Part shown: positions 7,828-19,539 of the stretch, piece after piece | Numbering within the stretch: position 1 is the first letter of the stretch | Layout of the letters: the number at the start of each line of letters is the position of its first letter | Assembly: GCF_002939785.1 (NCBI RefSeq) | Contig: NZ_MDEC01000022.1 | Location: forward strand, 1 to 64,000 | DNA: 64,000 nucleotides | Direction of reading: 5' to 3' | DNA from: Xanthomonas codiaei | GTDB lineage: Bacteria; Pseudomonadota; Gammaproteobacteria; Xanthomonadales; Xanthomonadaceae | The notes under the pieces: generated by a model | What the model saw: only the letters and a program-made list of their open reading frames with translations | What the model was told of the DNA's origin: nothing | Databases searched by the model: none | Program-made: the position numbers and the translations under genes

Positions 7828-8469
7828 TCAGGTCTCCAGCGACAGGATCCCGCGGCGCAGTGCGACGGTCACCGCGTGGGTGCGATCGCGCACGCCCAGC
7901 TTGGCCAGGATGTTCTTCATATGCGCCTTGGCGGTTTCTTCGGAGATCGTCAGCGCGTTGCCGATCTGCTTGTTGGAGCAGCCGGTGGCCACCAGGCTGA
8001 GCACTTCGGTTTCGCGGGCGGAGAGCGCATCGTCGAGGACGTGGGCGGCGATGTTCTCGGCCACCGATGCCGGCACCTGCCGGCGCTGGCCGCGGCGCAC
8101 GTTGCGGATGGTGTCCACCAGTTCGCGCCGCAGCGCGCTCTTGAGCAGGTAACCGCAGGCTCCGGCCTGCAGCGCTCGCACCGCGCGCACGTCGCCGGTA
8201 TAGGTGGTCAGCACGATGACCTTGGCGGCAGGGTCGACGCGGCGGATGCGCTGGATCGCCTCGACCCCATCCACGCGCGGCATCTGCAGGTCCATCAGCA
8301 CCACGTCCGGGCGCAGGCTGGCGTAGCGGGTCACCGCCTGTTCGCCGTCTTCGGCTTCGCCCACCACGCGCATGTCGCGTTCGGCGGCCAGCATGGCGCT
8401 GAGCCCGTCGCGCAGCAGCGGATGGTCGTCCACCACCAGCACATCGGTCGGTTTGACCGGCTCAGCCAT
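7828..8469 (-). CDS. NarL/FixJ-type response regulator
   Basis: A two-domain response regulator of about 213 residues. The receiver has VVDDHPLLRDGL at the N-terminus, the phosphorylated Asp in DVVLMDLQMP, the T of LTTYTGD and the K of LLKSA. A LuxR-type HTH follows (LSARETEVLSLVATGCSNKQI, then ISEETAKAHMKNILAKLGVRDR). The ATG at 8469 overlaps the kinase stop (ATGGCTGA, eight bases), which argues for translational coupling and makes the two a cognate pair. A start eight codons upstream (8493) is possible but less likely. Confidence 0.92.
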   Translation of the reverse strand: MAEPVKPTDVLVVDDHPLLRDGLSAMLAAERDMRVVGEAEDGEQAVTRYASLRPDVVLMDLQMPRVDGVEAIQRIRRVDPAAKVIVLTTYTGDVRAVRALQAGACGYLLKSALRRELVDTIRNVRRGQRRQVPASVAENIAAHVLDDALSARETEVLSLVATGCSNKQIGNALTISEETAKAHMKNILAKLGVRDRTHAVTVALRRGILSLET

Positions 8470-11400
8470 CGAAGCTCTCCGTGGATCCTGCATGTCGAAA
8501 GGGCCACCACCACCGCGGCGGTCTGGCGTACGCGGCGCGGGCGGGGATGACGACCTGGATCTCGGTGCCGCTGCCCGGTCGCGACCACAGCTGCATCTTG
8601 GCGCCGATGCGTTGCGCGCGTTCCTGCATGCCGGTCAGCCCCCAATGGCCGGTGCGTGCATGACCATGCAACACGTCCGGATCCAGGCCGCAGCCATCGT
8701 CGCGAATGCGCAGCACGAAGTCACGTGAACCGTAACGCAGTTCCAGCGTGATCCGGCGGGCGTCGGCATGCCGGTCGGCATTGGCCAGCGCCTCGCGGCC
8801 GAGCTGGAACAGTTCATCGGCCACCAGCGGGCGCAGCGCCACCGGGCGGCCGTCCACCACGACCTGCAGCTCGGCGGCAGGTAGCGCCACGGTGGCGTTG
8901 CGCGAACGCTGCAGGGCGGCAGCCAGATCTTCGCGCAGGGCATGACTGTCGCGTAGCCCGTTGACGCGCTCGCGGCCTTCGACCAATGCGTCTTCGGCCA
9001 GGTCCACCGCGTGCTCCAGCTCCAGCCGGCGCGGGTCGTCGCAGGGCAGCGAGCGGCTGGCCGCATGCAGGCGCAGGATCAATCCCTGCGTGCCCTGCAG
9101 CAAGGTGTCGTGCAGCTCGCGGGCAATGCGCTCGCGTTCGCGGTAGCGCTCTTCCAGGCGCGCCCGCAGCCGCCCGGCCACATGGCGGGTGCGCAGGCGC
9201 CAGGCGATCGCAAGCATCAGTAGCAGGGCCAGCACGGCGCAGAGCTTGAACTGCCAGGTCTGCACGAAGGCCGCTTCGATGACGAAGTCCAGGGTGTCGC
9301 CGCGTTCGTTCCAGACGCCGTCGTTATTGGCGGCGGCGATGCGGAAGCGGTAACGCCCCGGCGCCAGATTGGTATAAAACGCCTCGTTGCGATTGCCGGC
9401 GTCCTGCCACTGCGCGTCCACGCCCTCCAGGCGATAACGGAAGCGTACCCGCTCGGGGCGGGTGAGGCTGACCGCGTCGTAGCCGATGCGCAGGCGGTCG
9501 GTCCATTTGGGCAGGCGCAGGCCGTGCTCGCGCGGGTAGGGGCGGTCGTTGGCGACCACCTCGGTGATGAACACCTCCGGCGCGGTGGGATTGCGGTAAG
9601 TCTGCGCCGGGTCCAGCCAGGCCAGGCCCTGGTTGGTGGTGAACCACAGCAGGCCGTCGTCCGCAGCCAGCGCCGTGGGCACCGGCGTCGCCTGCTGGGC
9701 GATCCCGGGAAGCCCATCCATGATGTCGTACAGCCGCAGCGCGGGGCCCGCCATACCCGTGTGCACACTGCGCAGCAGGGCGCGTTGAGCGACCTGCACC
9801 ACGCCGCGGTTGCCGTTCAACCACAGCCTGCCATGGCGATCCTGCGCGATGCCGGTAATGCCTTGCAGCAGCGGATTGGCCTGGTCGGCCACCTGGCGGA
9901 AACGGCCATCGGCACCGAGCACGGCCAGCCCGGTATCGCCGGCGACCAGGGTGAGCGAAGGGCTCTGCCAGATCGCGGTGATCGGGCCCACCGACAACCC
10001 GTCCCGGGCGCTGTAGCGGGTGACTTGCTGGCCTCGTAGCACCCGCACCTCGCCCTTGACGGTGCCGATCCACAGGCCGCCGTCCTGCGCGGTGGCGAGC
10101 ACCGAACAGGGCGTGTCCTGCACGGCGGCCAGCGGCTGCCAGGTGCTGCCGTCGAACACATGGGGGCCGCCGGCGTCCGGGCAGACCCACGGGTGAGCGT
10201 GGCGATCCACGACGAAGGCGCGAATGGCACCGGGCGTCACGTCCTGCGGCAGCGCCACCACCTGGGAGCGGCCGGCCTGCAGCCGCAGCAATGCATGTTC
10301 GGCCAGCACCCAGCCATTGGCGGTAGGGGGGACATCCAGGGTGCCAGGCGGTGCGCCGTGCTGCAGGCGTTCGACCCGTGCGCGGCTCAGCGCGAGCAGC
10401 CGGCCGTCGCGCAGGCTGGCCAGCAAGGGCTGGGGCACGCTGCCCTGGCCGGTGTCGAAGATGGCCACTGCCATCGCCTGGCCCGGCAGCAATGGCGCCA
10501 ACGGCAACAACGCGCGGTGCCGGAAGCGATTGAGGCCCAGATTGGTGCCGGCCCACAGATTGCCTTCGCGGTCTTCGAGCAAGGGGCCGGCGGTTGCCGA
10601 GGTCAGGCCCTGCACTGGACCGAAGCGTTCCAGTACCGGGGTTGGCGAGGTGGGTTGGCCGATGCGGAACAGGCCCTGCGCTGCGTAGTCGCTGCCCCAT
10701 AGCGCGCCATCGTGCATGAAGCGGATGCGCCGCGCATGCAGCCCGGGAAACTGCGGCGTGGCGCGGGCAGAGGCGGGCAGGACCTGGCCGTTGCCATCGG
10801 TCAACGCGAACACGCCACGGTGCGGGTCGGCCACCCAGATCGCTCCGTCCGGGCGTTGCGCCATGGTGACGTACGCGCCCACCTGCTGGCCGGTGGGTTC
10901 GAAACGATGCGCGCCGGGTTGCAGCGACAGGATCTGGGTTCCGTCGCTGACCCATAGCACGCCACGCACATCGCGCAGCAGCCAGTGCGCCTGGCTGCGC
11001 GGATAGCCCCAGTCGGTACCGGCGCGCCGCCAGCGTTGTCCATCGAACCAACACAGGCCACCATCGATGGCCGCCCATACGCGTCCGCTGCCATCGCGCT
11101 CGATCCGGAACACCATGCCGTCGGGCACGTCCTTGCCTGGCGCGAAGTGGGTGATGCGACCGTCTGCAAGCCGGTCGATGCCGGCGTTGAAATAGCCGAT
11201 CCACGCGGTGTCCCCTGCGGCCAACGACAGCGCGGTCATATTGTGCGATGCATAGGCTTGGCCATCCGGCGGTGCCTGCCGGACGAACCGCTCGCCGTCG
11301 AACTGGAACAGGCCAAACCCGGTCGCCAGCCACAACGGGCCGGCATTGGCCTGCTGGATATCCCAGATGTCGGCCGGCGCACCGCGCTCGGTGCTCCAGG

Positions 11401-11551
11401 CGGTGTGGTGGAACTGCAGCAATCCCGCGCGCGTGGAAGCGATGCCGGCCGCCCGAACGGGCGCAGGCAGCAGCCACATGCACATCACCACGATCAGCAC
11501 CGCGCACAGGCGAGACAGCAGGTGTGATCGGATGACGGGCTCATGCGGCAT
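8462..11551 (-). CDS. Beta-propeller sensor histidine kinase (Reg_prop/Y_Y_Y/HisKA_3)
   Basis: About 1029 residues. A signal anchor (LCAVLIVVMCMWLLPAPVRAA) is followed by a large periplasmic region of two-component-regulator propeller repeats (WLATGFGLFQFDG, IWVADPHRGVF, LWAGTNLGLNRF, LWIGTVKGEVRVL, LWFTTNQGLAWLD). Next come a Y_Y_Y domain (FRYRLEGVDAQWQDAG ... YTNLAPGRYRFRIAA) and a single membrane segment (FKLCAVLALLLMLAIAW). The cytoplasmic HisKA_3 domain has the phospho-acceptor His814 in ARELHDTLLQG, and a HATPase_c domain follows with DDGCGLD and GLTGMQERA. This architecture typifies sensors of extracellular carbohydrates or other polymers, but the ligand is not readable here. The stop overlaps the start of the downstream NarL-type regulator. 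Confidence 0.9.
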   Translation of the reverse strand: MPHEPVIRSHLLSRLCAVLIVVMCMWLLPAPVRAAGIASTRAGLLQFHHTAWSTERGAPADIWDIQQANAGPLWLATGFGLFQFDGERFVRQAPPDGQAYASHNMTALSLAAGDTAWIGYFNAGIDRLADGRITHFAPGKDVPDGMVFRIERDGSGRVWAAIDGGLCWFDGQRWRRAGTDWGYPRSQAHWLLRDVRGVLWVSDGTQILSLQPGAHRFEPTGQQVGAYVTMAQRPDGAIWVADPHRGVFALTDGNGQVLPASARATPQFPGLHARRIRFMHDGALWGSDYAAQGLFRIGQPTSPTPVLERFGPVQGLTSATAGPLLEDREGNLWAGTNLGLNRFRHRALLPLAPLLPGQAMAVAIFDTGQGSVPQPLLASLRDGRLLALSRARVERLQHGAPPGTLDVPPTANGWVLAEHALLRLQAGRSQVVALPQDVTPGAIRAFVVDRHAHPWVCPDAGGPHVFDGSTWQPLAAVQDTPCSVLATAQDGGLWIGTVKGEVRVLRGQQVTRYSARDGLSVGPITAIWQSPSLTLVAGDTGLAVLGADGRFRQVADQANPLLQGITGIAQDRHGRLWLNGNRGVVQVAQRALLRSVHTGMAGPALRLYDIMDGLPGIAQQATPVPTALAADDGLLWFTTNQGLAWLDPAQTYRNPTAPEVFITEVVANDRPYPREHGLRLPKWTDRLRIGYDAVSLTRPERVRFRYRLEGVDAQWQDAGNRNEAFYTNLAPGRYRFRIAAANNDGVWNERGDTLDFVIEAAFVQTWQFKLCAVLALLLMLAIAWRLRTRHVAGRLRARLEERYRERERIARELHDTLLQGTQGLILRLHAASRSLPCDDPRRLELEHAVDLAEDALVEGRERVNGLRDSHALREDLAAALQRSRNATVALPAAELQVVVDGRPVALRPLVADELFQLGREALANADRHADARRITLELRYGSRDFVLRIRDDGCGLDPDVLHGHARTGHWGLTGMQERAQRIGAKMQLWSRPGSGTEIQVVIPARAAYARPPRWWWPFRHAGSTESFDG

Positions 11552-11994
11552 CGCGGCATTGTCGGGCGAGATCGGGGCAAGCACCACCACCTCTTTCGGG
11601 GGGAGCGACGCGCAACAGCAAATCGGGTATGCAGGCCGCATGCAGTCTGCATGCGCCGCAGTGCGCGCCTCAGCGGGGCGATCGTGCCTGTATCGCGAAT
11701 CGGTTGCATCGCCTGTGGCGCTGTCGCGTTCGCTCGGTGTGCTGGTGTCGCCCGAGGGCTCGTCCGCGCGCTGCCTGCAGCGAACTGGAGCCGGAGTCTG
11801 CGCCGCGTCGCGCGGCCGCGGGATGCTGCTGCAGTCGTCGTCGTCGTCGTCGTCGTCGTCGTAGTTGTGGCCGTGGTCGCTTCCAGATGCTGGCCTGTCG
11901 CTCCCTCGAAAGGGTGACCAATCCGCATCACCATCGGGGGTGGGGCGCCTGAGATGTCGGCCGCACCATGACGGCATCCCCCCGGAGACGCCGC
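11552..11994. other. Divergent control region between the sensor kinase and the AraC operon
   Basis: About 440 bases without a gene. The main feature is a (TCG)9 run at 11835-11861. Both divergent promoters must lie here. An ATG at 11968 in frame with the AraC gene has no ribosome-binding site. Confidence 0.5.
11835..11861. repeat. (TCG)9 trinucleotide repeat
   Basis: Nine perfect TCG units, about 130 bases upstream of the AraC-type regulator and about 290 bases upstream of the divergent kinase. It lies outside any likely coding sequence. Confidence 0.9.
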
Positions 11995-12462
11995 ATGGCA
12001 CGTCTGCTCGCCACTGGTCGCCCCGATCTGCATGCAGGTCGTGCATCTGCACTGCATGCCCAACGCGCGCGTGCCGTGGCCAGGGCGCTGCACTACATCG
12101 AAACGCATCTGTGCGAGCCCACCGGCGTGGCGCAGCTGGCCGCCGCTGCCTGCATGAGCCGCTTCCACTTCGCCCGTGTCTTCCGCGATGCGACCGGTGC
12201 CAGCCCGATGGCGTACCTGCGCCGCCGCCGGCTCGAACGCGCGCAGGCATTGTTGCGCGAGGGCCGCCACACCGTCAGCCAGATCGCCACCGATCTGTGC
12301 TTCTTCGATCAAAGCCACTTCGTGCGCAGCTTTCGCACTGCCACCGGCTGCACGCCTGCGCGCTTCGCCGCGCAGGTTGCCTCCGATACCCGTACAGCCG
12401 TGCCGCGAGCGCTGCGGCACCACGGCCGTTCCCATTCCATGTCCCTGGAGCACCACGCATGA
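11995..12462 (+). CDS. AraC-family transcriptional regulator (stand-alone DNA-binding domain)
   Basis: About 155 residues, essentially only the AraC/XylS DNA-binding domain with a short N-terminal extension and no sugar- or effector-binding domain. The first helix-turn-helix reads VAQLAAAACMSRFHFARVFRD, and the second ISQIATDLCFFDQSHFVRSFR (here VSQIATD...), ending in the conserved F-R-x-x-G-x-x-P-x-x-F/R. The start at 11995 has GGAGA seven bases upstream; an ATG at 11968 would add nine residues. Its stop overlaps the next ATG (ATGA), so it is the first gene of the seven-gene operon and the likely local regulator. Confidence 0.87.
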   Translation: MARLLATGRPDLHAGRASALHAQRARAVARALHYIETHLCEPTGVAQLAAAACMSRFHFARVFRDATGASPMAYLRRRRLERAQALLREGRHTVSQIATDLCFFDQSHFVRSFRTATGCTPARFAAQVASDTRTAVPRALRHHGRSHSMSLEHHA

Positions 12463-13115
12463 CCACTGCTACTGCCACCCCCGGCAACGCCCTGCTGTCG
12501 CCCGGCGATCACGCCTTGATCCTGATCGACCATCAATCGCAGATGGCGTTCGCCACCCATACCATCGACATCTCGGCGCTGCGCAACAACGTCGCGTTGA
12601 TCGCCAAGGGCGCCAAGGGCTTCCAGGTGCCGGTGATCCTGACCACGGTGGCGGAAAAATCGTTCTCCGGGCCGTTGTTTCCCGAGCTGCCGGAGATCTT
12701 CCCAGGTGAGCCAGTACTCGATCGCACCAGCATGAATGCCTGGGAAGACCAGGCGGTGATCGACCGCGTCAACGCCATCGGCAAGCGGCGTCTGGTGATT
12801 GCCGGCCTGTGGACCAGCGTGTGCATCGTCGGCCCCGCGCTGTCGGCGATCGACCAGGGCTTTGAGGTCTATGTCATCACCGATGCCTGTGGCGACGTCA
12901 GCGACGAAGCGCATGAACGCGCGGTCACGCGCATGGTGCAGGCTGGCGCGGCGCCGATGACCAGCGTGCAGTACCTGCTGGAACTGCAGCGCGATTGGGC
13001 GCGCGGGGACACCTATGACCTCACCACCGGCATCGCCCGCGCGCACGCCGGTGGCTATGGCATCGGCATCCAGTACGCCAAGCACATGTTCGGCGCGCAG
13101 GAAGGCGGGCATTGA
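12459..13115 (+). CDS. Isochorismatase-like cysteine hydrolase (YcaC type)
   Basis: A 218-residue cysteine hydrolase of the isochorismatase superfamily, nearest in layout to YcaC. The catalytic triad can be placed: Asp in LILIDHQSQM (~residue 27), the central Lys (~93-111 region, GKRRLVIAG), and the nucleophile Cys in GLWTSVCIVGPAL (~residue 121). Substrates of YcaC-like enzymes are unknown; related ones act on carbamoyl or amide compounds. The C-terminal segment (DWARGDTYDLTTGIARAHAGGYG) is typical of the YcaC group. It overlaps the AraC stop by four bases and the DoxX start by four, firmly inside the operon. Confidence 0.87.
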   Translation: MTTATATPGNALLSPGDHALILIDHQSQMAFATHTIDISALRNNVALIAKGAKGFQVPVILTTVAEKSFSGPLFPELPEIFPGEPVLDRTSMNAWEDQAVIDRVNAIGKRRLVIAGLWTSVCIVGPALSAIDQGFEVYVITDACGDVSDEAHERAVTRMVQAGAAPMTSVQYLLELQRDWARGDTYDLTTGIARAHAGGYGIGIQYAKHMFGAQEGGH

Positions 13116-13540
13116 ACGCATCCGCGCCACGCGGCAGTGCGGCAGCGCTGCTGATGCTGCGTATCGCTGGGGGCGGATTGCTGCTGCCGCATGGGTTGGG
13201 CAAGTTGCTGGGTTGGTTCGGCGGACCGGGACTGGCCGGCTTCGCCGCCGAATTGCAGCAGTTCGGCCTTCCCGCTGCCGCGCCATTGCCGTTGCTGCTG
13301 GCATTGGTGCAGACGCTGTCCGGCCTGGCCGTGCTGCTGGGGCTGTGGACACGCGCGAGTGCTGCGCTGGCAGCGGTGTTCATCGCCACCACGGTGCTGG
13401 TGGCCGCGCCCAAAGGCTGGTTCTGGATGCACGGCGGCATGGAATACCCGTTGATGTGGCTGCTGGTGTTGCTGGCGCTGCTCGCCGCCGGTGGCGGCGC
13501 CTGGTCGCTGGATGGCCTGCGCAGGCGCGCTGCGACATGA
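13112..13540 (+). CDS. DoxX-family inner-membrane protein
   Basis: A 142-residue membrane protein with four hydrophobic segments (LLMLRIAGGGLLLPHGLGKLL, LPLLLALVQTLSGLAVLLGL, ALAAVFIATTVLVAA, WLLVLLALLAAGGGAW) and the G-x-x-K...LGWFGG pattern of DoxX/YphA proteins. The role of DoxX proteins is not settled; several have been tied to redox stress or to sulfur and quinone chemistry. The start is probably the TTG at 13112, which overlaps the previous stop (TTGA); a later ATG at 13154 would remove part of the first helix. It ends inside the next gene's start codon (ATGA). Confidence 0.83.
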   Translation: MNASAPRGSAAALLMLRIAGGGLLLPHGLGKLLGWFGGPGLAGFAAELQQFGLPAAAPLPLLLALVQTLSGLAVLLGLWTRASAALAAVFIATTVLVAAPKGWFWMHGGMEYPLMWLLVLLALLAAGGGAWSLDGLRRRAAT

Positions 13541-15495
13541 CCGGCAGCGCACGCGATCACAGCCCCGGACGCCGCCTGTGGATGCAAGGCGCCGCTGCCG
13601 GCTTTGCATTGGGCGCACTGCCCGGAACCTCGTCTGCTGCAAGGACACCGCCGATGGTCGATCTTGTCGTTCGCAATGCACGCGTCACCACGCTGGATCC
13701 GCGTCGGCCCAGTGCCACCGCGCTCGCGGTGGCCAATGGACGCATCGCGGCGGTGGGCGACGATGCGCAGATCATGGCAATGGCCGGGGACGCGCGCGTC
13801 ATTGATGCGCAGGGGCGGCGCCTGCTGCCCGGGCTCAACGACAGCCACACCCACCTGATCCGCGGCGGACTCAACTACAACCTGGAGCTGCGCTGGGATG
13901 GCGTGCGCTCGCTGGCCGATGCTATGGCCATGTTGAAGGCGCAGGTCGATCGCACCCCGGCTCCGCAGTGGGTGCGTGTGGTAGGGGGCTTCACCGCCCA
14001 TCAGTTCGCTGAAAAGCGCCTGCCCACGCTGGACGAAATCAATGCGATTGCGCCGGATACCCCGGTCTTCCTGCTGCATCTGTACGATCGCGCCTTGCTC
14101 AATCGCGCCGCGTTGCGCGCCTGCGGTTACGACAAGGCCACGCTCGATCCGCCCGGCGGGCGCATCGAGCGCGACAAGCTGGGCAATCCCACCGGCCTGC
14201 TGCTGGCCAAGCCCAATGCATTGATCCTGTATGCGAGCCTGGCCAAGGGACCGCGCCTGCCGCTGGACTACCAGGCCAATTCCACCCGCCATTTCATGCG
14301 CGAACTCAACCGGCTGGGCATCACCTCGGTGATCGATGCCGGTGGCGGCTTCCAGAATTATCCGGAGGACTACCAGGTCATCGAGCAGTTGCACGCGGCC
14401 GGTCAGCTGAGCGTGCGCATCGCCTACAACCTGTTCACCCAGAACAAGGGCAGGGAGGTCGCCGACTTCCGCGGCTGGACCGAGCTGCTGCCGGTGCGCA
14501 AGGGCGACGACCTGCTGCGCCACAACGGCGCCGGCGAGATGCTGGTGTTCTCCGCGGCCGACTTCGAGCAGTTCAGCGAACCGCGCCCGGAGCTGCCGCC
14601 GGAACTGGAGCCGGAGCTGGAACAGGTGGTGCGCTTACTGGTGGAAAAGCGCTGGCCGTTCCGTATCCATGCCACCTACGACGAGAGCATCGGACGCATT
14701 CTCGATGTCTACGAGAAGGTCAACGCCGACATTCCGTTCGATGGCCTGCACTGGTTCATCGACCATGCCGAGACCATCACCGCCCGCAATATCGATCGCA
14801 TCCGCGCCTTGAATGGCGGTATCGCCGTGCAGCACCGCATGGCGTACCAGGGCGAGGCCTTCGTGGCGCGCTACGGCGTGCAGGCCGCACGGCACACGCC
14901 GCCGATACGCCGCATGCTGGCGGCCGGTATTCCGGTCGGTGCCGGTACCGATGCCACCCGTGTGGCCAGCTACAACCCGTGGGTGGCGCTGTCGTGGCTG
15001 GTCACCGGCCGCACCGTGGGCGGGCTGGCGCTGTATGGCGAGGAAAACCTGCTCGATCGCGAACAGGCCTTGCGGCTGTGGACGCAGGGCAGTGCCTGGT
15101 TCTCCGGCGACGAGTCGCACAAGGGCACCCTGGCGGCAGGCCAACTGGCCGACTTCATCGTGTTGTCGGACGACTACTTCCGTGTCGACGATGCCGCCAT
15201 TGCCGAGATCACCAGCGTGTTGACGGTGCTGGGCGGGCAGGTCGTGCATGGCGATGGCGACTTTGCCGTATTGGCGCCGGGCCTGCCTCTGGCGATGCCG
15301 GACTGGTCGCCGGTCAACCGGTTCGGCGGCTATCAGGTGGGCGGTGTGGTGAGCGGGCTGGCCAGTGCCGCGCATACGCACGGCCCTGGTTGCGCTGCGC
15401 ACGGCCCGCACCGGCACGCCGCGCACCATGCAGCGCCCAGCGACGATCTGCGCGGGTTCTGGGGCGCATTGGGCTGCGCGTGTTTCGCCTTCTGA
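13537..15495 (+). CDS. Tat-exported YtcJ-type amidohydrolase (Amidohydro_3)
   Basis: 652 residues. The N-terminus has a twin-arginine-like signal (GRRLWMQGAAAGFALGAL...SSA), so a periplasmic location is likely. The metal-dependent hydrolase core follows: the HxH pair in NDSHTH (~107-109), a His in FRIHATYDES, a His in FIDHAE and the Asp in GAGTDATR, together the binuclear-metal set of the amidohydrolase superfamily. The C-terminal ADFIVLSDDYF is the usual closing motif of Amidohydro_3 enzymes. After about residue 605 there is a His-rich tail (HTHGPGCAAHGPHRHAAHH) ending CACFAF that looks able to bind metal and is not part of the family core. The substrate is unknown; YtcJ-like enzymes cleave amide or N-formyl bonds. 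Confidence 0.87.
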   Translation: MTGSARDHSPGRRLWMQGAAAGFALGALPGTSSAARTPPMVDLVVRNARVTTLDPRRPSATALAVANGRIAAVGDDAQIMAMAGDARVIDAQGRRLLPGLNDSHTHLIRGGLNYNLELRWDGVRSLADAMAMLKAQVDRTPAPQWVRVVGGFTAHQFAEKRLPTLDEINAIAPDTPVFLLHLYDRALLNRAALRACGYDKATLDPPGGRIERDKLGNPTGLLLAKPNALILYASLAKGPRLPLDYQANSTRHFMRELNRLGITSVIDAGGGFQNYPEDYQVIEQLHAAGQLSVRIAYNLFTQNKGREVADFRGWTELLPVRKGDDLLRHNGAGEMLVFSAADFEQFSEPRPELPPELEPELEQVVRLLVEKRWPFRIHATYDESIGRILDVYEKVNADIPFDGLHWFIDHAETITARNIDRIRALNGGIAVQHRMAYQGEAFVARYGVQAARHTPPIRRMLAAGIPVGAGTDATRVASYNPWVALSWLVTGRTVGGLALYGEENLLDREQALRLWTQGSAWFSGDESHKGTLAAGQLADFIVLSDDYFRVDDAAIAEITSVLTVLGGQVVHGDGDFAVLAPGLPLAMPDWSPVNRFGGYQVGGVVSGLASAAHTHGPGCAAHGPHRHAAHHAAPSDDLRGFWGALGCACFAF

Positions 15496-15580
15496 TGCTG
15501 CGATTGCTCCGCTGCGCATGCAGGCCAGCTGGCCGCCTGCGCAGCGCCCGTTGTCTTCGGTCCACTGGAGTCTTGCTGCG

Positions 15581-17209
15581 ATGACGTCTTCTGCCGCACC
15601 TGCCGATGGCAGTGCCTGGGCACCGCTGCGCGAACCGATGTTTCGGGCCCTGTGGCTGGCGATCCTGGGCAGCAACATCGGTACCTGGATCAACGATGTC
15701 GCCGCCTCCTGGGTGATGGCCGGGCAGACCGGCTCACCGTTGATGGTGGCAGCCGTGCAAGCGGCCACCACCTTGCCGGTGGTGCTGTTTGCGCTGGTTG
15801 CCGGAACCCTGGCCGATATCGTGGACCGGCGCCGCTATCTGCTGCTGACCCAGGGCTGGATGTTGCTGGTGGCCGGCGTGCTGGCCCTGCTTGCGCACCT
15901 GCAGTTGCTGACGCCATGGGTGCTGGTCGCGCTGACCTTTGCGATGGGCATGGGCGCGGCGATGGCGATGCCGGCGCAAGCGGCGATCGTTTCGGAGCTG
16001 GTGCCGCGCCCGATGCTGGCTTCGGCGGTGGCACTCAACTCGATCGGCATGAACATCGCCCGCTCGATCGGCCCGGCGATCGGCGGCCTGATCGTGGCGC
16101 AGTTCGGGCCACCGTGGGCCTTCCTGCTCAACGGGGTGACGTTCGGCCTGATGCTGCTGGTGCTGTGGCGCTGGCGTCGCGATGCACAGGCCTCGGCACT
16201 GCCACCGGAAAGCTTCGGCGCCGGCCTGCGTGCCGGCCTGCGCTATGCCGCACGTGCCGGCCGTCTGCAGGCGGTGTTGATCAAGGCCGCCGGCTTCTTC
16301 CTGTTCGCCAGCGCATTGACCGCCCTGCTGCCATTGGTGGTACGCCGCGACATGCAGCTGGGCGCCGGCAGCTACGGCATCCTGCTCGGCTGCATCGGTA
16401 TCGGCGCGATCAGTGGCGCCTTGCTGCTGCCGCGCTTGCGCGCCCGTTACGACCGCGACCTGCTGGTGTTCGTCGCCACGCTGGTCTGCGCCGCCTCGCT
16501 GCTGGGCCTGGCGTTGTCGCGCCAGATCGGCGTGTTGTGCCTGGTGATGGTGGTCAACGGTCTGGCCTGGATCACCGTGCTGTCGTCGTTGCAGATCGCC
16601 GCGCAGACCGCGGTGCCGGCCTGGGTGCGCGCGCGCGCCTTGTCGTTGTACATCGTGGTGTTCTCGGCCGGCATGGCGGCAGGCTCGCTGCTCTGGGGCG
16701 CGGTGGCGCAGCGCAGCTCGATTGCGATCGCGTTGCAGATCGCTGCCGCAGGCGCGGTGCTTGCGGCGCTGCTGGTCAAGCGCGCCCGCATCGCCGGCAC
16801 CGAACACCTGGATCTTGCACCGGCCGGACATTGGCCGGCACCTGCGCAGGCGGATGCGGTCGAGCACGACCGCGGCCCGGTGCTGGTGACCGTGGAATAC
16901 CGCATCGCCGCCGAGGCGCGCAGGAGTTTCCTGCAGTTGATGACGCAACTGGGAACCGCACGCCGTCGCGATGGTGCAGTGGTCTGGGGCATTGCCGAAG
17001 ACGCGGCCACCCCGGGCGTGCACCTGGAATACTTTATCGTTGCCTCCTGGCTGGAGCACCTGCGCCAGCACGAGCGCGTCACCGGCGACGATCGCCAACT
17101 GCAGGAGCAGATCCGCGCACTGCACCAGGGCGAGCGCGCTCCGGTGGTGCGCCATTTCGTCGGCGGTAGTGGCGTCATCGCGCCGCCGCATGCGCATTCG
17201 GATCTCTGA
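15581..17209 (+). CDS. MFS exporter (MFS_3/EntS-like) with C-terminal ABM-like domain
   Basis: 542 residues. The first ~405 form a twelve-helix major facilitator with the MFS_3 hallmarks (LGSNIGTWINDVAASWVMA at the first helix, VDRRRYLL in loop 2-3, ARSIGPAIGG in helix 5), the subfamily that includes the enterobactin exporter EntS. Residues ~430-530 (VLVTVEYRIAAEARRSFLQL ... VVWGIAEDA ... HLEYFIVASWLEHLRQHERV) form an antibiotic-biosynthesis-monooxygenase-like ferredoxin fold often fused to this transporter group. The start at 15581 is the ATG that begins just before the first helix. There is an 85-base gap from the amidohydrolase. The likely role is export of a product or toxic intermediate. 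Confidence 0.88.
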   Translation: MTSSAAPADGSAWAPLREPMFRALWLAILGSNIGTWINDVAASWVMAGQTGSPLMVAAVQAATTLPVVLFALVAGTLADIVDRRRYLLLTQGWMLLVAGVLALLAHLQLLTPWVLVALTFAMGMGAAMAMPAQAAIVSELVPRPMLASAVALNSIGMNIARSIGPAIGGLIVAQFGPPWAFLLNGVTFGLMLLVLWRWRRDAQASALPPESFGAGLRAGLRYAARAGRLQAVLIKAAGFFLFASALTALLPLVVRRDMQLGAGSYGILLGCIGIGAISGALLLPRLRARYDRDLLVFVATLVCAASLLGLALSRQIGVLCLVMVVNGLAWITVLSSLQIAAQTAVPAWVRARALSLYIVVFSAGMAAGSLLWGAVAQRSSIAIALQIAAAGAVLAALLVKRARIAGTEHLDLAPAGHWPAPAQADAVEHDRGPVLVTVEYRIAAEARRSFLQLMTQLGTARRRDGAVVWGIAEDAATPGVHLEYFIVASWLEHLRQHERVTGDDRQLQEQIRALHQGERAPVVRHFVGGSGVIAPPHAHSDL

Positions 17210-17210
17210 C

Positions 17211-17447
17211 ATGGCGGTGAACTGGAAGCTCATCGTCGGCCTGGTGTTGGGGATGGCCATTGGGTTCGGCTGCCGGGCGGCGGGAATTCCGTCGCCTGCA
17301 CCCACCGCCCTGGTGGGCGCGTTGCTGGTGCTGGCAATGACCTGTGGCTATGCGTTTGCCGATCGCTTTCTGGCCCGGCGCGCGGCACGCAGCCTGCGGC
17401 ATTGCGGTGGGCCGGTCGGTCCTTCGCTGGGGCAGGGCGAGGCATGA
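17211..17447 (+). CDS. XapX-domain small membrane protein 1
   Basis: 78 residues with two hydrophobic helices separated by a proline-rich turn: LIVGLVLGMAIGFGCRAAGI, then PSPAPTALVGALLVLAMTCGYAFAD. This GxxxGxxxxxxxxPxPxPxxxxG pattern defines XapX (DUF1427) proteins, a short family of unknown function often encoded beside transporters and hydrolases. The C-terminal 20 residues are extra compared with its neighbour. It starts two bases after the MFS stop. Confidence 0.8.
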   Translation: MAVNWKLIVGLVLGMAIGFGCRAAGIPSPAPTALVGALLVLAMTCGYAFADRFLARRAARSLRHCGGPVGPSLGQGEA

Positions 17448-17602
17448 GCATGGCGGTGATGGGCATCGTGCTCGCGCTGCTCATCGGCATCGGTTGCCGT
17501 GTGCTGGATCTGCCGTTGCCCGCACCGCCGCGCCTGACCGGCGCGCTGCTGGTGGTCGCGATGAGTGGCGGGTTCATCCTGGCCGACTGGCTGTTGCGCT
17601 AG
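17444..17602 (+). CDS. XapX-domain small membrane protein 2
   Basis: 52 residues, the full length of a typical XapX protein: GIVLALLIGIGCRVLDLPLP, APPRLTGALLVVAMSGGFILADWLL. Its ATG overlaps the stop of the first XapX gene (ATGA), and the two proteins align along their whole XapX domains. They therefore look like a tandem duplication that may form a hetero-oligomeric membrane unit. It is the last gene of the operon; no strong terminator is visible in the 290 bases after it apart from the one belonging to the opposite strand at 17838. Confidence 0.8.
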   Translation: MSMAVMGIVLALLIGIGCRVLDLPLPAPPRLTGALLVVAMSGGFILADWLLR

Positions 17603-17894: not shown

Positions 17895-18884
17895 TCAGGC
17901 CTTTGCGAAGGCCAGCAGATCCTTGTTGAACTGATCGGCGTGCGTGATGGTCAGCCCATGCGGCGCGCCGGCATAGATCTTCAGTTCGGCATTCTTGATG
18001 ATCTTGGACGACAGCTTGGCGGAGGCATCGATCGGCACGATCTGGTCGTCGTCGCCATGCACCACCAGCGCCGGCACGTCGATCTTCTTCAGGTCGGGTG
18101 TGTAATCGACTTCGGAGAATTCCTTGATGCAGTCGTACTGTCCCTTGTGGCCGCCCAGCATGCCCTGCAGCCAGAACGCATCGCGCATGCCCTGGGTAAC
18201 CTTGTTGCCGTCACGGTTGGCGCCGAAGAACGGGGTGGTCAGGTCCTGGTAGAACTGCGAACGGTCCTTGGCCACGCCCTCGCGGATGCCGTCGAACACG
18301 CTCATCGGCAGACCGCCCGGATTGGTCGGGCTCTTGACCATCTGCGGCGGTACCGCGCCCACCAGCACCACCTTGGCCACGCGCTTGCTGCCGTGACGAC
18401 CCACGTAGTGTGCCACTTCGCCGCCGCCGGTAGAGTGGCCGACCAGGATCGCGTCCTTCAGGTCCAGCGCGTCGATCACTGCGGCCAGATCGTCGGCGTA
18501 GGTGTCCATATTGTTGCCGTCCCAGGTCTGGCTGGAACGGCCGTGGCTGCGGCGGTCATGCGCGATCACGCGATAGCCGTGTTGACCCATGAACAGCATC
18601 TGCGGGTCCCAGGCGTCGCCGCTGAGCGGCCAGCCATGCGCGAACACGACCGGCTGGCCCTTGCCCCAGTCCTTGTAGAAAATGTTGGCGCCATCGGGGC
18701 GTTTGACGAAATTGGACATCGGGTTGACTCCGTGTGTAGACGAGTGGGGTGGGTTGGTCGGAACGGCAGGTGCAACGGCAGCGGTTGCGAATGCGGGCAA
18801 CGACAACGCTGCCACGGCGGCCGTGCCGGAGACGAGAAAGGTGCGGCGTCCGGCGTCGGCCGGAGGCGCCTCGAACGGATCCAT
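17895..18884 (-). CDS. Exported alpha/beta hydrolase (non-heme chloroperoxidase-like)
   Basis: 329 residues. The N-terminal 45 carry a twin-arginine-type signal ([24 protein letters not shown]). The alpha/beta-hydrolase fold follows: oxyanion region [11 protein letters not shown], nucleophile elbow GHSTGGGE, acid in [11 protein letters not shown] and His in [10 protein letters not shown], giving a complete Ser-Asp-His triad. This set, with the W and the DRRSHGRS element, is typical of cofactor-free haloperoxidase/esterase proteins. The natural substrate is unknown. AGGAG six bases upstream fixes the start at 18884. An internal start at the second Met cluster ([11 protein letters not shown]) would give the signal-less enzyme usually annotated in this family. 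Confidence 0.87.
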
Positions 18885-19539
18885 AGACACTCCTGTGGGC
18901 AAGGGCATGCAGCCCGGCGGTCGCATGACGCAATGCTGGTCATGCGCGCATGCGCCACGTGGTGACGCAGGCCAGGGACCAGCCGGTGCATGCCGGCAGT
19001 AGACCGCTTGCAGCCGTGGTGCAGATTGCATCCGTGTGCGCTCTATGCGGCGCGTCGCGGTGTGGCCGAAGGGTGCGATAGGCGCAGCCGCTCAGGCCAG
19101 GCAGGGCAGGCCCTGACCAGACTGCCGGATGACCTCACTGTCTTCTCCCGCTTGCGGGAGAAGGTGGCGCAACGCGCCGGATGAGGGCGCTCGTGCACCA
19201 ATCTCCCGGAAGTGAGCACCGGATGACCTGCACTGTCTTCTCCCGCTCGCGGGAGAAGGTGGCGCAACGCGCCGGATGAGGGCTCGTGCACCAATCTCCC
19301 GTAAGTGAGCACCGGATGGCCGGACTGTCTTCTCCCGCTTGCGGGAGAAGGTGGCGCAACGCGCCGGATGAGGGCGCTCGTGCACTAATCTCCCGCAAGT
19401 GAAAAGCCTGCGCGAAGGGGCGCGTGCCACTCCGTGCCCCTGGCGCTGTCCATCGGGGGGCCCCGTCGGAGCGGTCGAGCGCGTTGGCGGCCGGCGATGC
19501 GTGCAACCTGTCGCGGCATTGCCGCCACGTCGCCGCCGC
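18885..19539. other. Intergenic region with a triplicated hairpin repeat
   Basis: About 650 bases without a gene. The centre (19139-19402) is three tandem copies of a hairpin-bearing repeat, described separately. The rest shows no open frame with support. Confidence 0.6.
19139..19402. repeat. Three tandem copies of a ~92-95 bp hairpin repeat
   Basis: Copies begin at 19139, 19234 and 19326; the last is cut short at about 19402. Each opens with TGTCTTCTCCCGC, a 3-4 base turn and GCGGGAGAAG (a near-perfect hairpin). It continues GTGGCGCAACGCGCCGGATGAGGG and then a TGCACxAATCTCCCG tail. The copies differ at a few positions (for example CTTGC versus CTCGC in the hairpin turn). The hairpin sense is CTTCTCCCGC-GCGGGAGAAG, a form common between genes in Xanthomonas. 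No transposase is nearby. Confidence 0.9.

Follow-up and report, generated by a model that had tools for sequence, protein, structure and literature searches.

A conserved hydrolase-amidohydrolase core with exchangeable partner genes in Xanthomonas codiaei and across bacterial phyla

A stretch of 64,000 nucleotides from Xanthomonas codiaei (contig NZ_MDEC01000022.1, positions 1 to 64,000, referred to hereafter as the window), part of a 5.04 Mb genome, contains a set of seven genes on the + strand at 11995-17602. Two of the products, a YcaC-like cysteine hydrolase and an amidohydrolase of the Amidohydro_3 family, form a core that is kept together across phyla, and genes for XapX, DoxX, MFS_3, alpha/beta-hydrolase and outer-membrane porin proteins recur around it in optional positions. 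An invariant Cys/His tail and the absence of a lysine in the amidohydrolase are new observations. Each of the protein families is already known, and parts of the copy in Pseudomonas aeruginosa are in print. The reading we favour, tentatively and at slightly less than even confidence, is that the genes belong to a conserved module whose parts can be exchanged and which would break down a small compound of ester or amide type by hydrolysis across the cell envelope.

Conservation of the core across phyla

Whether the gene order is confined to close kin, a point raised in the first-pass annotation of this DNA, was checked in several sets of genomes, and the core was found across phyla. Among 61 genomes searched, strong homologues of the amidohydrolase were present in four of the 26 from outside the genus (G047, G054, G039 and G050), each with a homologue of the YcaC-like hydrolase nearby. 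A scan of named genomes was based on an eight-row alignment (A1) consisting of the window amidohydrolase (P0004) and seven rows from L033, L035, L039, L048, L050 (two) and L051, with L049 (from G054) left out. The scan yielded 587 confirmed relatives. All counts out of 80 loci given here are based on the best 80 of these 587, and the set therefore leans towards close relatives. The 80 loci span Stenotrophomonas, Pseudoxanthomonas, Luteimonas, Pseudomonas, Cupriavidus, Achromobacter, Sphingomonas, Rhizobium and others; further hosts are Microvirga, Azospirillum, Caulobacter, Nitrosomonas, the myxobacterium Archangium and Chitinophaga, a member of the Bacteroidota.

By tblastn (E <= 1e-10, at least 60% of the query) a homologue of the YcaC-like hydrolase was found in 76 of the 80 loci and lay within 3 kb of the amidohydrolase in 75; in L094 the distance was 5.8 kb. 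The search gave no match in L078, L081, L107 and L129, and identity was only about 40% in L096, L106, L108 and L128. Clustering of open reading frames (ORFs) was stricter and gave a lower count, 73 loci with 72 of 80 within 3 kb, because overlapping ORFs were discarded. By the same clustering, the partners within 3 kb were MFS_3 (44 of 80), XapX (42), DoxX (37), an Alginate_exp porin (31), an alpha/beta-hydrolase (30), DUF1275 (21), AraC (17), a kinase (13), a VOC-like protein (11), a response regulator (11), LysR (10) and pirin (8), where the names of the porin, DUF1427, DUF1275 and pirin clusters come from Pfam on one representative each. Removal of the 12 Xanthomonadaceae loci left YcaC in 60, XapX in 38, DoxX in 32 and MFS in 32 of 68 loci at this distance.

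The association was also seen in an even sample of 120 genomes drawn from the phylum (119 besides that of the window). The amidohydrolase (E <= 1e-100) was present in 10 of the 119, XapX in seven and both in six (Fisher p 4e-7, a test that ignores relatedness); G067 was the sole genome with XapX and no amidohydrolase. A YcaC-like gene lay within about 6 kb of the amidohydrolase in nine of the 10 genomes, and in G114 the match was on another contig. XapX adjoined the amidohydrolase in four of the six genomes with both (G068, G155, G167 and G076) and was elsewhere in the genome in G118 and G122. Among 14 control genomes, XapX was matched in two (Escherichia coli and Haloferax volcanii) and PF07235, the longer XapX form (DUF1427), in none.

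Homologues of the amidohydrolase (E <= 1e-50) were found on 383 of 72,556 plasmid records. The annotation of an Azospirillum B510 plasmid lists alpha/beta-hydrolase, hydrolase, XapX, amidohydrolase, DoxX and YoaK genes, and that of a Microvirga terrae plasmid lists hydrolase, amidohydrolase, DoxX and two tandem DUF1427 genes. Partial homologues covering 50-75% of the query, perhaps incomplete copies, were seen on the Escherichia albertii plasmids NZ_CP117603, NZ_CP034167 and CP043253.

Active site, tail and export signal of the amidohydrolase

The amidohydrolase (13537-15495, + strand, 652 residues) is a YtcJ-like metallohydrolase that matched the whole of PF07969 (profile 1-472 of 472) at 456.5 bits against a curated cut-off of 29.7. 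An AlphaFold2 model (mean predicted local distance difference test score, pLDDT, 82.7; predicted template modelling score 0.84) showed an amidohydrolase barrel, and the closest solved folds were two uncharacterised archaeal hydrolases. The residues of the HxH/His/His/Asp metal site (H104, H106, H378, H410 and D472) were the same in all 81 aligned rows; a second alignment (A2) took in 48 of the 80 loci and the window protein. Seven of eight ordinary relatives have a bridging lysine on the fourth strand, before the DG motif; the window protein has none. Since this bridging lysine is not universal in the amidohydrolase superfamily, its absence lowers the likeness to those relatives and leaves the Pfam membership as it is. 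E334, at the end of the strand 327-334, is invariant and is a candidate replacement for the missing lysine.

The C-terminal tail (residues 613-652, 15373-15492, + strand) ends in FWGALGCACFAF. Nine of its residues (C619, H622, H625, H627, F641, G643, G646, C647 and C649) were identical in all 81 rows, and positions 613 and 615 were Cys or His in 77 and 79 rows, respectively. This invariance was read from aligned columns; the stricter end pattern FWGxLGCxCxAF fits only 24 of the 80 loci. The tail is a probable binding site for a transition metal, with zinc the likeliest, a role suggested by the residues alone because the model leaves the tail unresolved. In clusters of this kind, two related copies (the first copy of L050, and L051) have no tail, and both of these aligned copies are likewise without the lysine. 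At 15582-19315 of L050, the tail-less copy (47% identical to the window protein) stands directly upstream of a tail-bearing one, so that a single cluster holds two paralogues; the cluster also includes YcaC and, judged by eye, a YceI-like protein and a porin of the Alginate_exp kind.

The N-terminus (residues 1-36, 13537-13644, + strand) reads GRRLWMQGAAAGFALGALPGTSSA and resembles a signal for twin-arginine translocation (Tat), with paired arginines and a hydrophobic stretch recognised by eye and by a crude pattern. The first-pass annotation had called this protein a probably Tat-exported metal enzyme, and the call gains support from this N-terminus and from the apparent orthologue PA2699, which is a Tat substrate.

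The Pseudomonas aeruginosa genes PA2698-PA2701

PA2698-PA2701 of P. aeruginosa appears to be the same module as the window set, and PA2701 is presumably an MFS gene. The link was drawn from the gene list and the printed PA2699 signal peptide. That peptide (PMC6085387) closely resembles, by eye, the N-termini of loci L178-L192. The gene order is YcaC, amidohydrolase, partial OprD and MFS_3 in L173, and Abhydrolase_3, YcaC, amidohydrolase and OprD in L166 and L177. A YcaC-like hydrolase gene next to that of a tail-bearing amidohydrolase with a Tat-like signal was observed both in the window and among the Pseudomonas-family loci. A table of PMC11599538 lists PA2699-2701 as an operon, in which PA2700 is opdB, an OprD-type porin. 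Tat dependence of PA2699 is reported from proteomics (PMC4899797) and from a reporter assay (PMC6085387). PA2698 was raised in parB-overexpressing cells (PMC5521831), together with PA2699 in Pf4r comparisons (PMC8402870), and 2.5-fold in a spermidine-transporter mutant (PMC2110884). The portions of these papers that deal with PA2698-PA2701 assign no function to the genes.

PA2699 was detected in the exoproteome only under phosphate starvation, and two start codons are described for it (PMC4899797). Starvation-dependent appearance would suit scavenging, in which a starving cell would use the module to import and degrade an organic nutrient from plants, fungi or lysed cells, for instance an ester or an N-acyl compound; porin and secreted enzymes would feed the cell and the MFS carrier would balance or export a by-product. 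The OprD or Alginate_exp porins of many loci and the many homologues on plasmid records of Rhizobium, Sinorhizobium and Pantoea point the same way. However, MFS_3 carriers are exporter-like, and no catabolic pathway genes were recognised in the 45 largest ORF clusters, most of which are without annotation. The regulation of PA2698 also fits scavenging poorly, because BexR, which also alters efflux pumps, raises the gene 7-fold along with a pirin gene and an FMN-reductase gene (PMC2796861). Overall, scavenging is a possible explanation that we hold to be unlikely.

The BexR data would sit better with detoxification of an electrophilic or aromatic toxin of plant or microbial origin, by hydrolysis and MFS efflux in the manner of the Sax system. 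This is a shade more doubtful. The layout of AraC, hydrolase and carrier genes would suit such a role, as would MFS_3 within 3 kb of so many of the amidohydrolase genes (44 of 80) and pirin in 15 of 80 neighbourhoods. In addition, a listing of 2005 confined DUF1427 to bacteria that its authors took to be plant-associated, including P. aeruginosa (PMC554113). Against this, porins suit uptake, the hosts include Nitrosomonas and Chitinophaga, which have no evident plant tie, and the likeness to Sax is by description only, no search for a SaxA-like gene having been made. Detoxification and scavenging may both still stand alongside the envelope hydrolysis route that we favour.

The seven genes of the window

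All seven ORFs are real genes under purifying selection, including the two small XapX ORFs. Pairwise dN/dS ratios (nonsynonymous to synonymous substitution rates, Nei-Gojobori) against four loci of the same genus (three for DoxX) were 0.07-0.12 for the YcaC, amidohydrolase and MFS genes, 0.09-0.18 for DoxX and both XapX genes, and 0.23-0.36 for the AraC gene; two of the dS values were above 1. The ORFs are at the coordinates and on the strand noted earlier, and the tight packing described then holds, with 4-base overlaps at 12459-12462, 13112-13115, 13537-13540 and 17444-17447 and a 1-base gap at 17210 between the MFS_3 gene and the first XapX gene. Overlaps or tiny gaps, which had been attributed to most junctions, thus occur at five, and the junction between the amidohydrolase and MFS genes is the exception, with the one sizeable gap (85 bases, 15496-15580).

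The first gene (11995-12462) encodes a stand-alone AraC-type DNA-binding protein of 155 residues, or 164 residues from an ATG at 11968, for which Pfam and NCBIfam gave an HTH_18/HTH_AraC match and reported no further domain. The YcaC-like isochorismatase-fold cysteine hydrolase (12459-13115, 218 residues) has an Isochorismatase match and no signal, as expected of the cytosolic enzyme proposed at first. Its score for the YcaC equivalog NF041461 (149 bits, E 1e-43) is below the cut-off of 310 bits, and its placement in a separate subfamily, as a relative and not an orthologue of YcaC, is based on this shortfall. Its closest solved relatives by sequence are 1yac and 4wgf. The DoxX-family membrane protein (13112-13540, TTG start) matched DoxX at 51.8 bits.

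The MFS_3 transporter (15581-17209, 542 residues) matched its family at 624 bits over residues 11-527, a span that includes a C-terminal soluble extension. It had been described as an EntS-like exporter with an ABM domain. The carrier assignment stands, but the score for the EntS equivalog (99.5 of 324 bits) is below threshold and Pfam reported no separate ABM domain at E <= 0.1. The last two genes (17211-17447, 78 residues, and 17444-17602, 52 residues) encode small membrane proteins whose identification as XapX was upheld, at 51.4 and 48.3 bits against the TIGR03510 cut-off of 27.8. Neither matched PF07235 at E <= 0.1; the representative from L115, of the other loci, did so at 125 bits.

Flanking genes and distribution within the genus

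On the - strand upstream of the AraC gene is a divergent pair, a LuxR-type response regulator (7828-8493; Response_reg and GerE) that overlaps by 32 bases a sensor histidine kinase gene (8462-11560, start codon approximate; Reg_prop, Y_Y_Y, HisKA_3 and HATPase_c). Downstream and convergent with the set is an alpha/beta-hydrolase gene (17895-19031, - strand) of the non-heme chloroperoxidase/arylesterase type (1a8s, E 4e-123). Its product has a Tat-like N-terminus, RRTFL, and a crude pattern found a Tat-like motif in 16 of 44 members of the alpha/beta-hydrolase cluster, so two hydrolases of the module may be exported by Tat.

Orthologues of the amidohydrolase (at least 83% identity) were present in the window genome and in 17 of 34 genus mates, and the kinase (E <= 1e-200) was found in exactly the same 18 of the 61 genomes. 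Of the 17 orthologue loci, 15 were fetched at length (G014 and G026 were left out). The response regulator, kinase, AraC, YcaC, amidohydrolase, MFS and alpha/beta-hydrolase genes were each matched in all 15, and DoxX in 13. Two XapX genes at different places were found in nine, one (partial) in four and none in two. The seven-gene operon of the first-pass annotation is therefore too narrow a unit: the kinase/regulator pair and the alpha/beta-hydrolase accompany the set in 15 of 15 loci, and DoxX or XapX is sometimes missing.

Beyond the alpha/beta-hydrolase, an Nramp-type gene, named by eye, was present in 14 of the 15 loci, and the 15th stops at the contig end. A metal-linked system, in which the module would handle zinc or copper in the envelope and the tailed amidohydrolase would be a metal buffer or a metal-gated enzyme, could draw on this neighbour, on the invariant Cys/His tail and on the peaks of CzcR found by chromatin immunoprecipitation at PA2696 and PA2698 under zinc excess (PMC13209446). 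Against it, Nramp is rare beside the core outside the genus (a cluster of four loci), and no metal-resistance genes were recognised in the 45 largest clusters, most of them without annotation. A YcaC-type hydrolase is not known to have a metal role. We regard a metal-linked system as very improbable.

Two repeats were noted near the set. Between the divergent kinase and AraC genes lies a perfect GTC triplet repeat of 9.7 copies (11834-11862). A pattern search found no run of at least five GTC triplets in the 15 loci of the genus, and the repeat is possibly a strain-specific length variation in a shared kinase/AraC promoter region. Between the alpha/beta-hydrolase and the Nramp-type gene, a 92-base unit is present in three tandem copies (19125-19402, 93% match).

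A proposed route of hydrolysis across the envelope

We return to the hydrolysis of a small compound across the envelope. The slots (channel, esterase, Tat-exported amidohydrolase, small membrane proteins, cysteine hydrolase and MFS carrier) suggest such a route by their combination. The compound would enter the periplasm, by way of an OprD- or Alginate_exp-type porin in those loci that have one, and would be cleaved there by the folded, metal-loaded amidohydrolase after its export by Tat, and often by an alpha/beta-hydrolase as well. Any portion that entered the cytosol would be opened by the YcaC-like cysteine hydrolase, and the MFS_3 carrier would expel the residue. At the inner membrane, DoxX and XapX might act on behalf of the exported enzyme or of its product, and in Xanthomonas control of the set would fall to the small AraC protein together with the kinase/LuxR pair. 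The substrate class, direction of flow, tail metal, roles of DoxX and XapX, and control by the kinase pair are all what we infer. The involvement of a metal is consistent with the invariant ligands and with the CzcR peaks. Amide or carbamate, the substrate suggested in the first-pass annotation, was not supported. Nor was export of the product, since the porins (Alginate_exp in 31 of 80 loci, OprD in Pseudomonas-family loci) suit uptake equally.

Several observations weigh against this reading. No substrate, activity or phenotype is on record for the module, and the optional slots are so variable that no one route, uptake or export, fits all loci. The tail has pLDDT values below 50 in the model, and the RR motif was found by a crude pattern in only 45 of the 80 related loci. 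In P. aeruginosa, native PA2699 was found in the medium, a His-tagged form aggregated with none in the supernatant, and the Tat signal is described as lost in several plant-associated pseudomonads (PMC4899797). In the zinc-excess data (PMC13209446), the CzcR motif at PA2698 falls in the weakest of the classes given (p < 0.01), and neither PA2696 nor PA2698 has an RNA-seq entry. Within the genus, the gene set is missing from 17 of 34 mates, and block gain or loss of contiguous DNA could alone yield the identical distribution of kinase and amidohydrolase. DoxX was unmatched in L039 and L047, and XapX is absent from two of 15 loci. Some copies look damaged: the response regulator, MFS and alpha/beta-hydrolase genes of L043 and the kinase gene of L045 each match in two pieces, and the amidohydrolase match of G004 has an internal stop.

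A bolder version, which we think more doubtful than either scavenging or detoxification, is that the amidohydrolase represents a distinct class of envelope metallohydrolase, Tat-exported and lysine-less, with a tail that would load or sense zinc and so gate the enzyme. Together with dedicated small membrane partners (XapX/DUF1427 and DoxX) and the cysteine hydrolase of the cytosol, it would act on a single compound that soil- and plant-associated bacteria of different phyla encounter. If true, this would be the first role for XapX/DUF1427.

Searches of open-access papers gave no description of the cross-phylum module, of XapX as its partner, of the tail or of the changed metal site. The earlier reading is thus partly supported as a whole: its claim of an undescribed system holds for function only, since separate papers already touch on parts of PA2698-PA2701. 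Although the core recurs across phyla and homologues of its amidohydrolase lie on plasmids, no published function was found. Once XapX/DUF1427, DoxX, the YcaC-like hydrolase, PA2699 and MFS are seen as parts of one module, several separate unknowns become one testable question, for which the invariant tail and altered metal site offer concrete residues.

Comparison with known systems

The SaxA enzyme is, we presume, of the metallo-beta-lactamase type and thus different from the window hydrolases. The Sax isothiocyanate system of Pseudomonas (PMC12903958) may be likened to the window set, by description, in its logic of regulator, hydrolase and efflux; SaxB is given there as uncharacterised. 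Among YtcJ-like enzymes, which include the N-substituted formamide deformylase NfdA and the metallo-bile-salt hydrolases (PMC13081902), the whole PF07969 domain, the HxH/His/His/Asp site and the fold are common ground, whereas the window amidohydrolase is without the lysine before the DG motif and has the invariant E334 and the Cys/His tail. The cytosolic hydrolase is of the same family as YcaC of E. coli (1yac) and P. aeruginosa (4wgf, PMC4519933) and keeps the catalytic-type Asp and Cys regions, but differs in reaching fewer than half of the bits set for the equivalog. PA2698-PA2701 differs in having the porin opdB, which has no counterpart in the window set, and in the two start codons of PA2699; unlike the window, 12 Pseudomonas-family loci gave no match to DoxX or XapX beside the enzyme. 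What the two sets appear to have in common is a hydrolase (PA2698) and a YtcJ-like enzyme with a Tat-like signal (PA2699, itself a Tat substrate).

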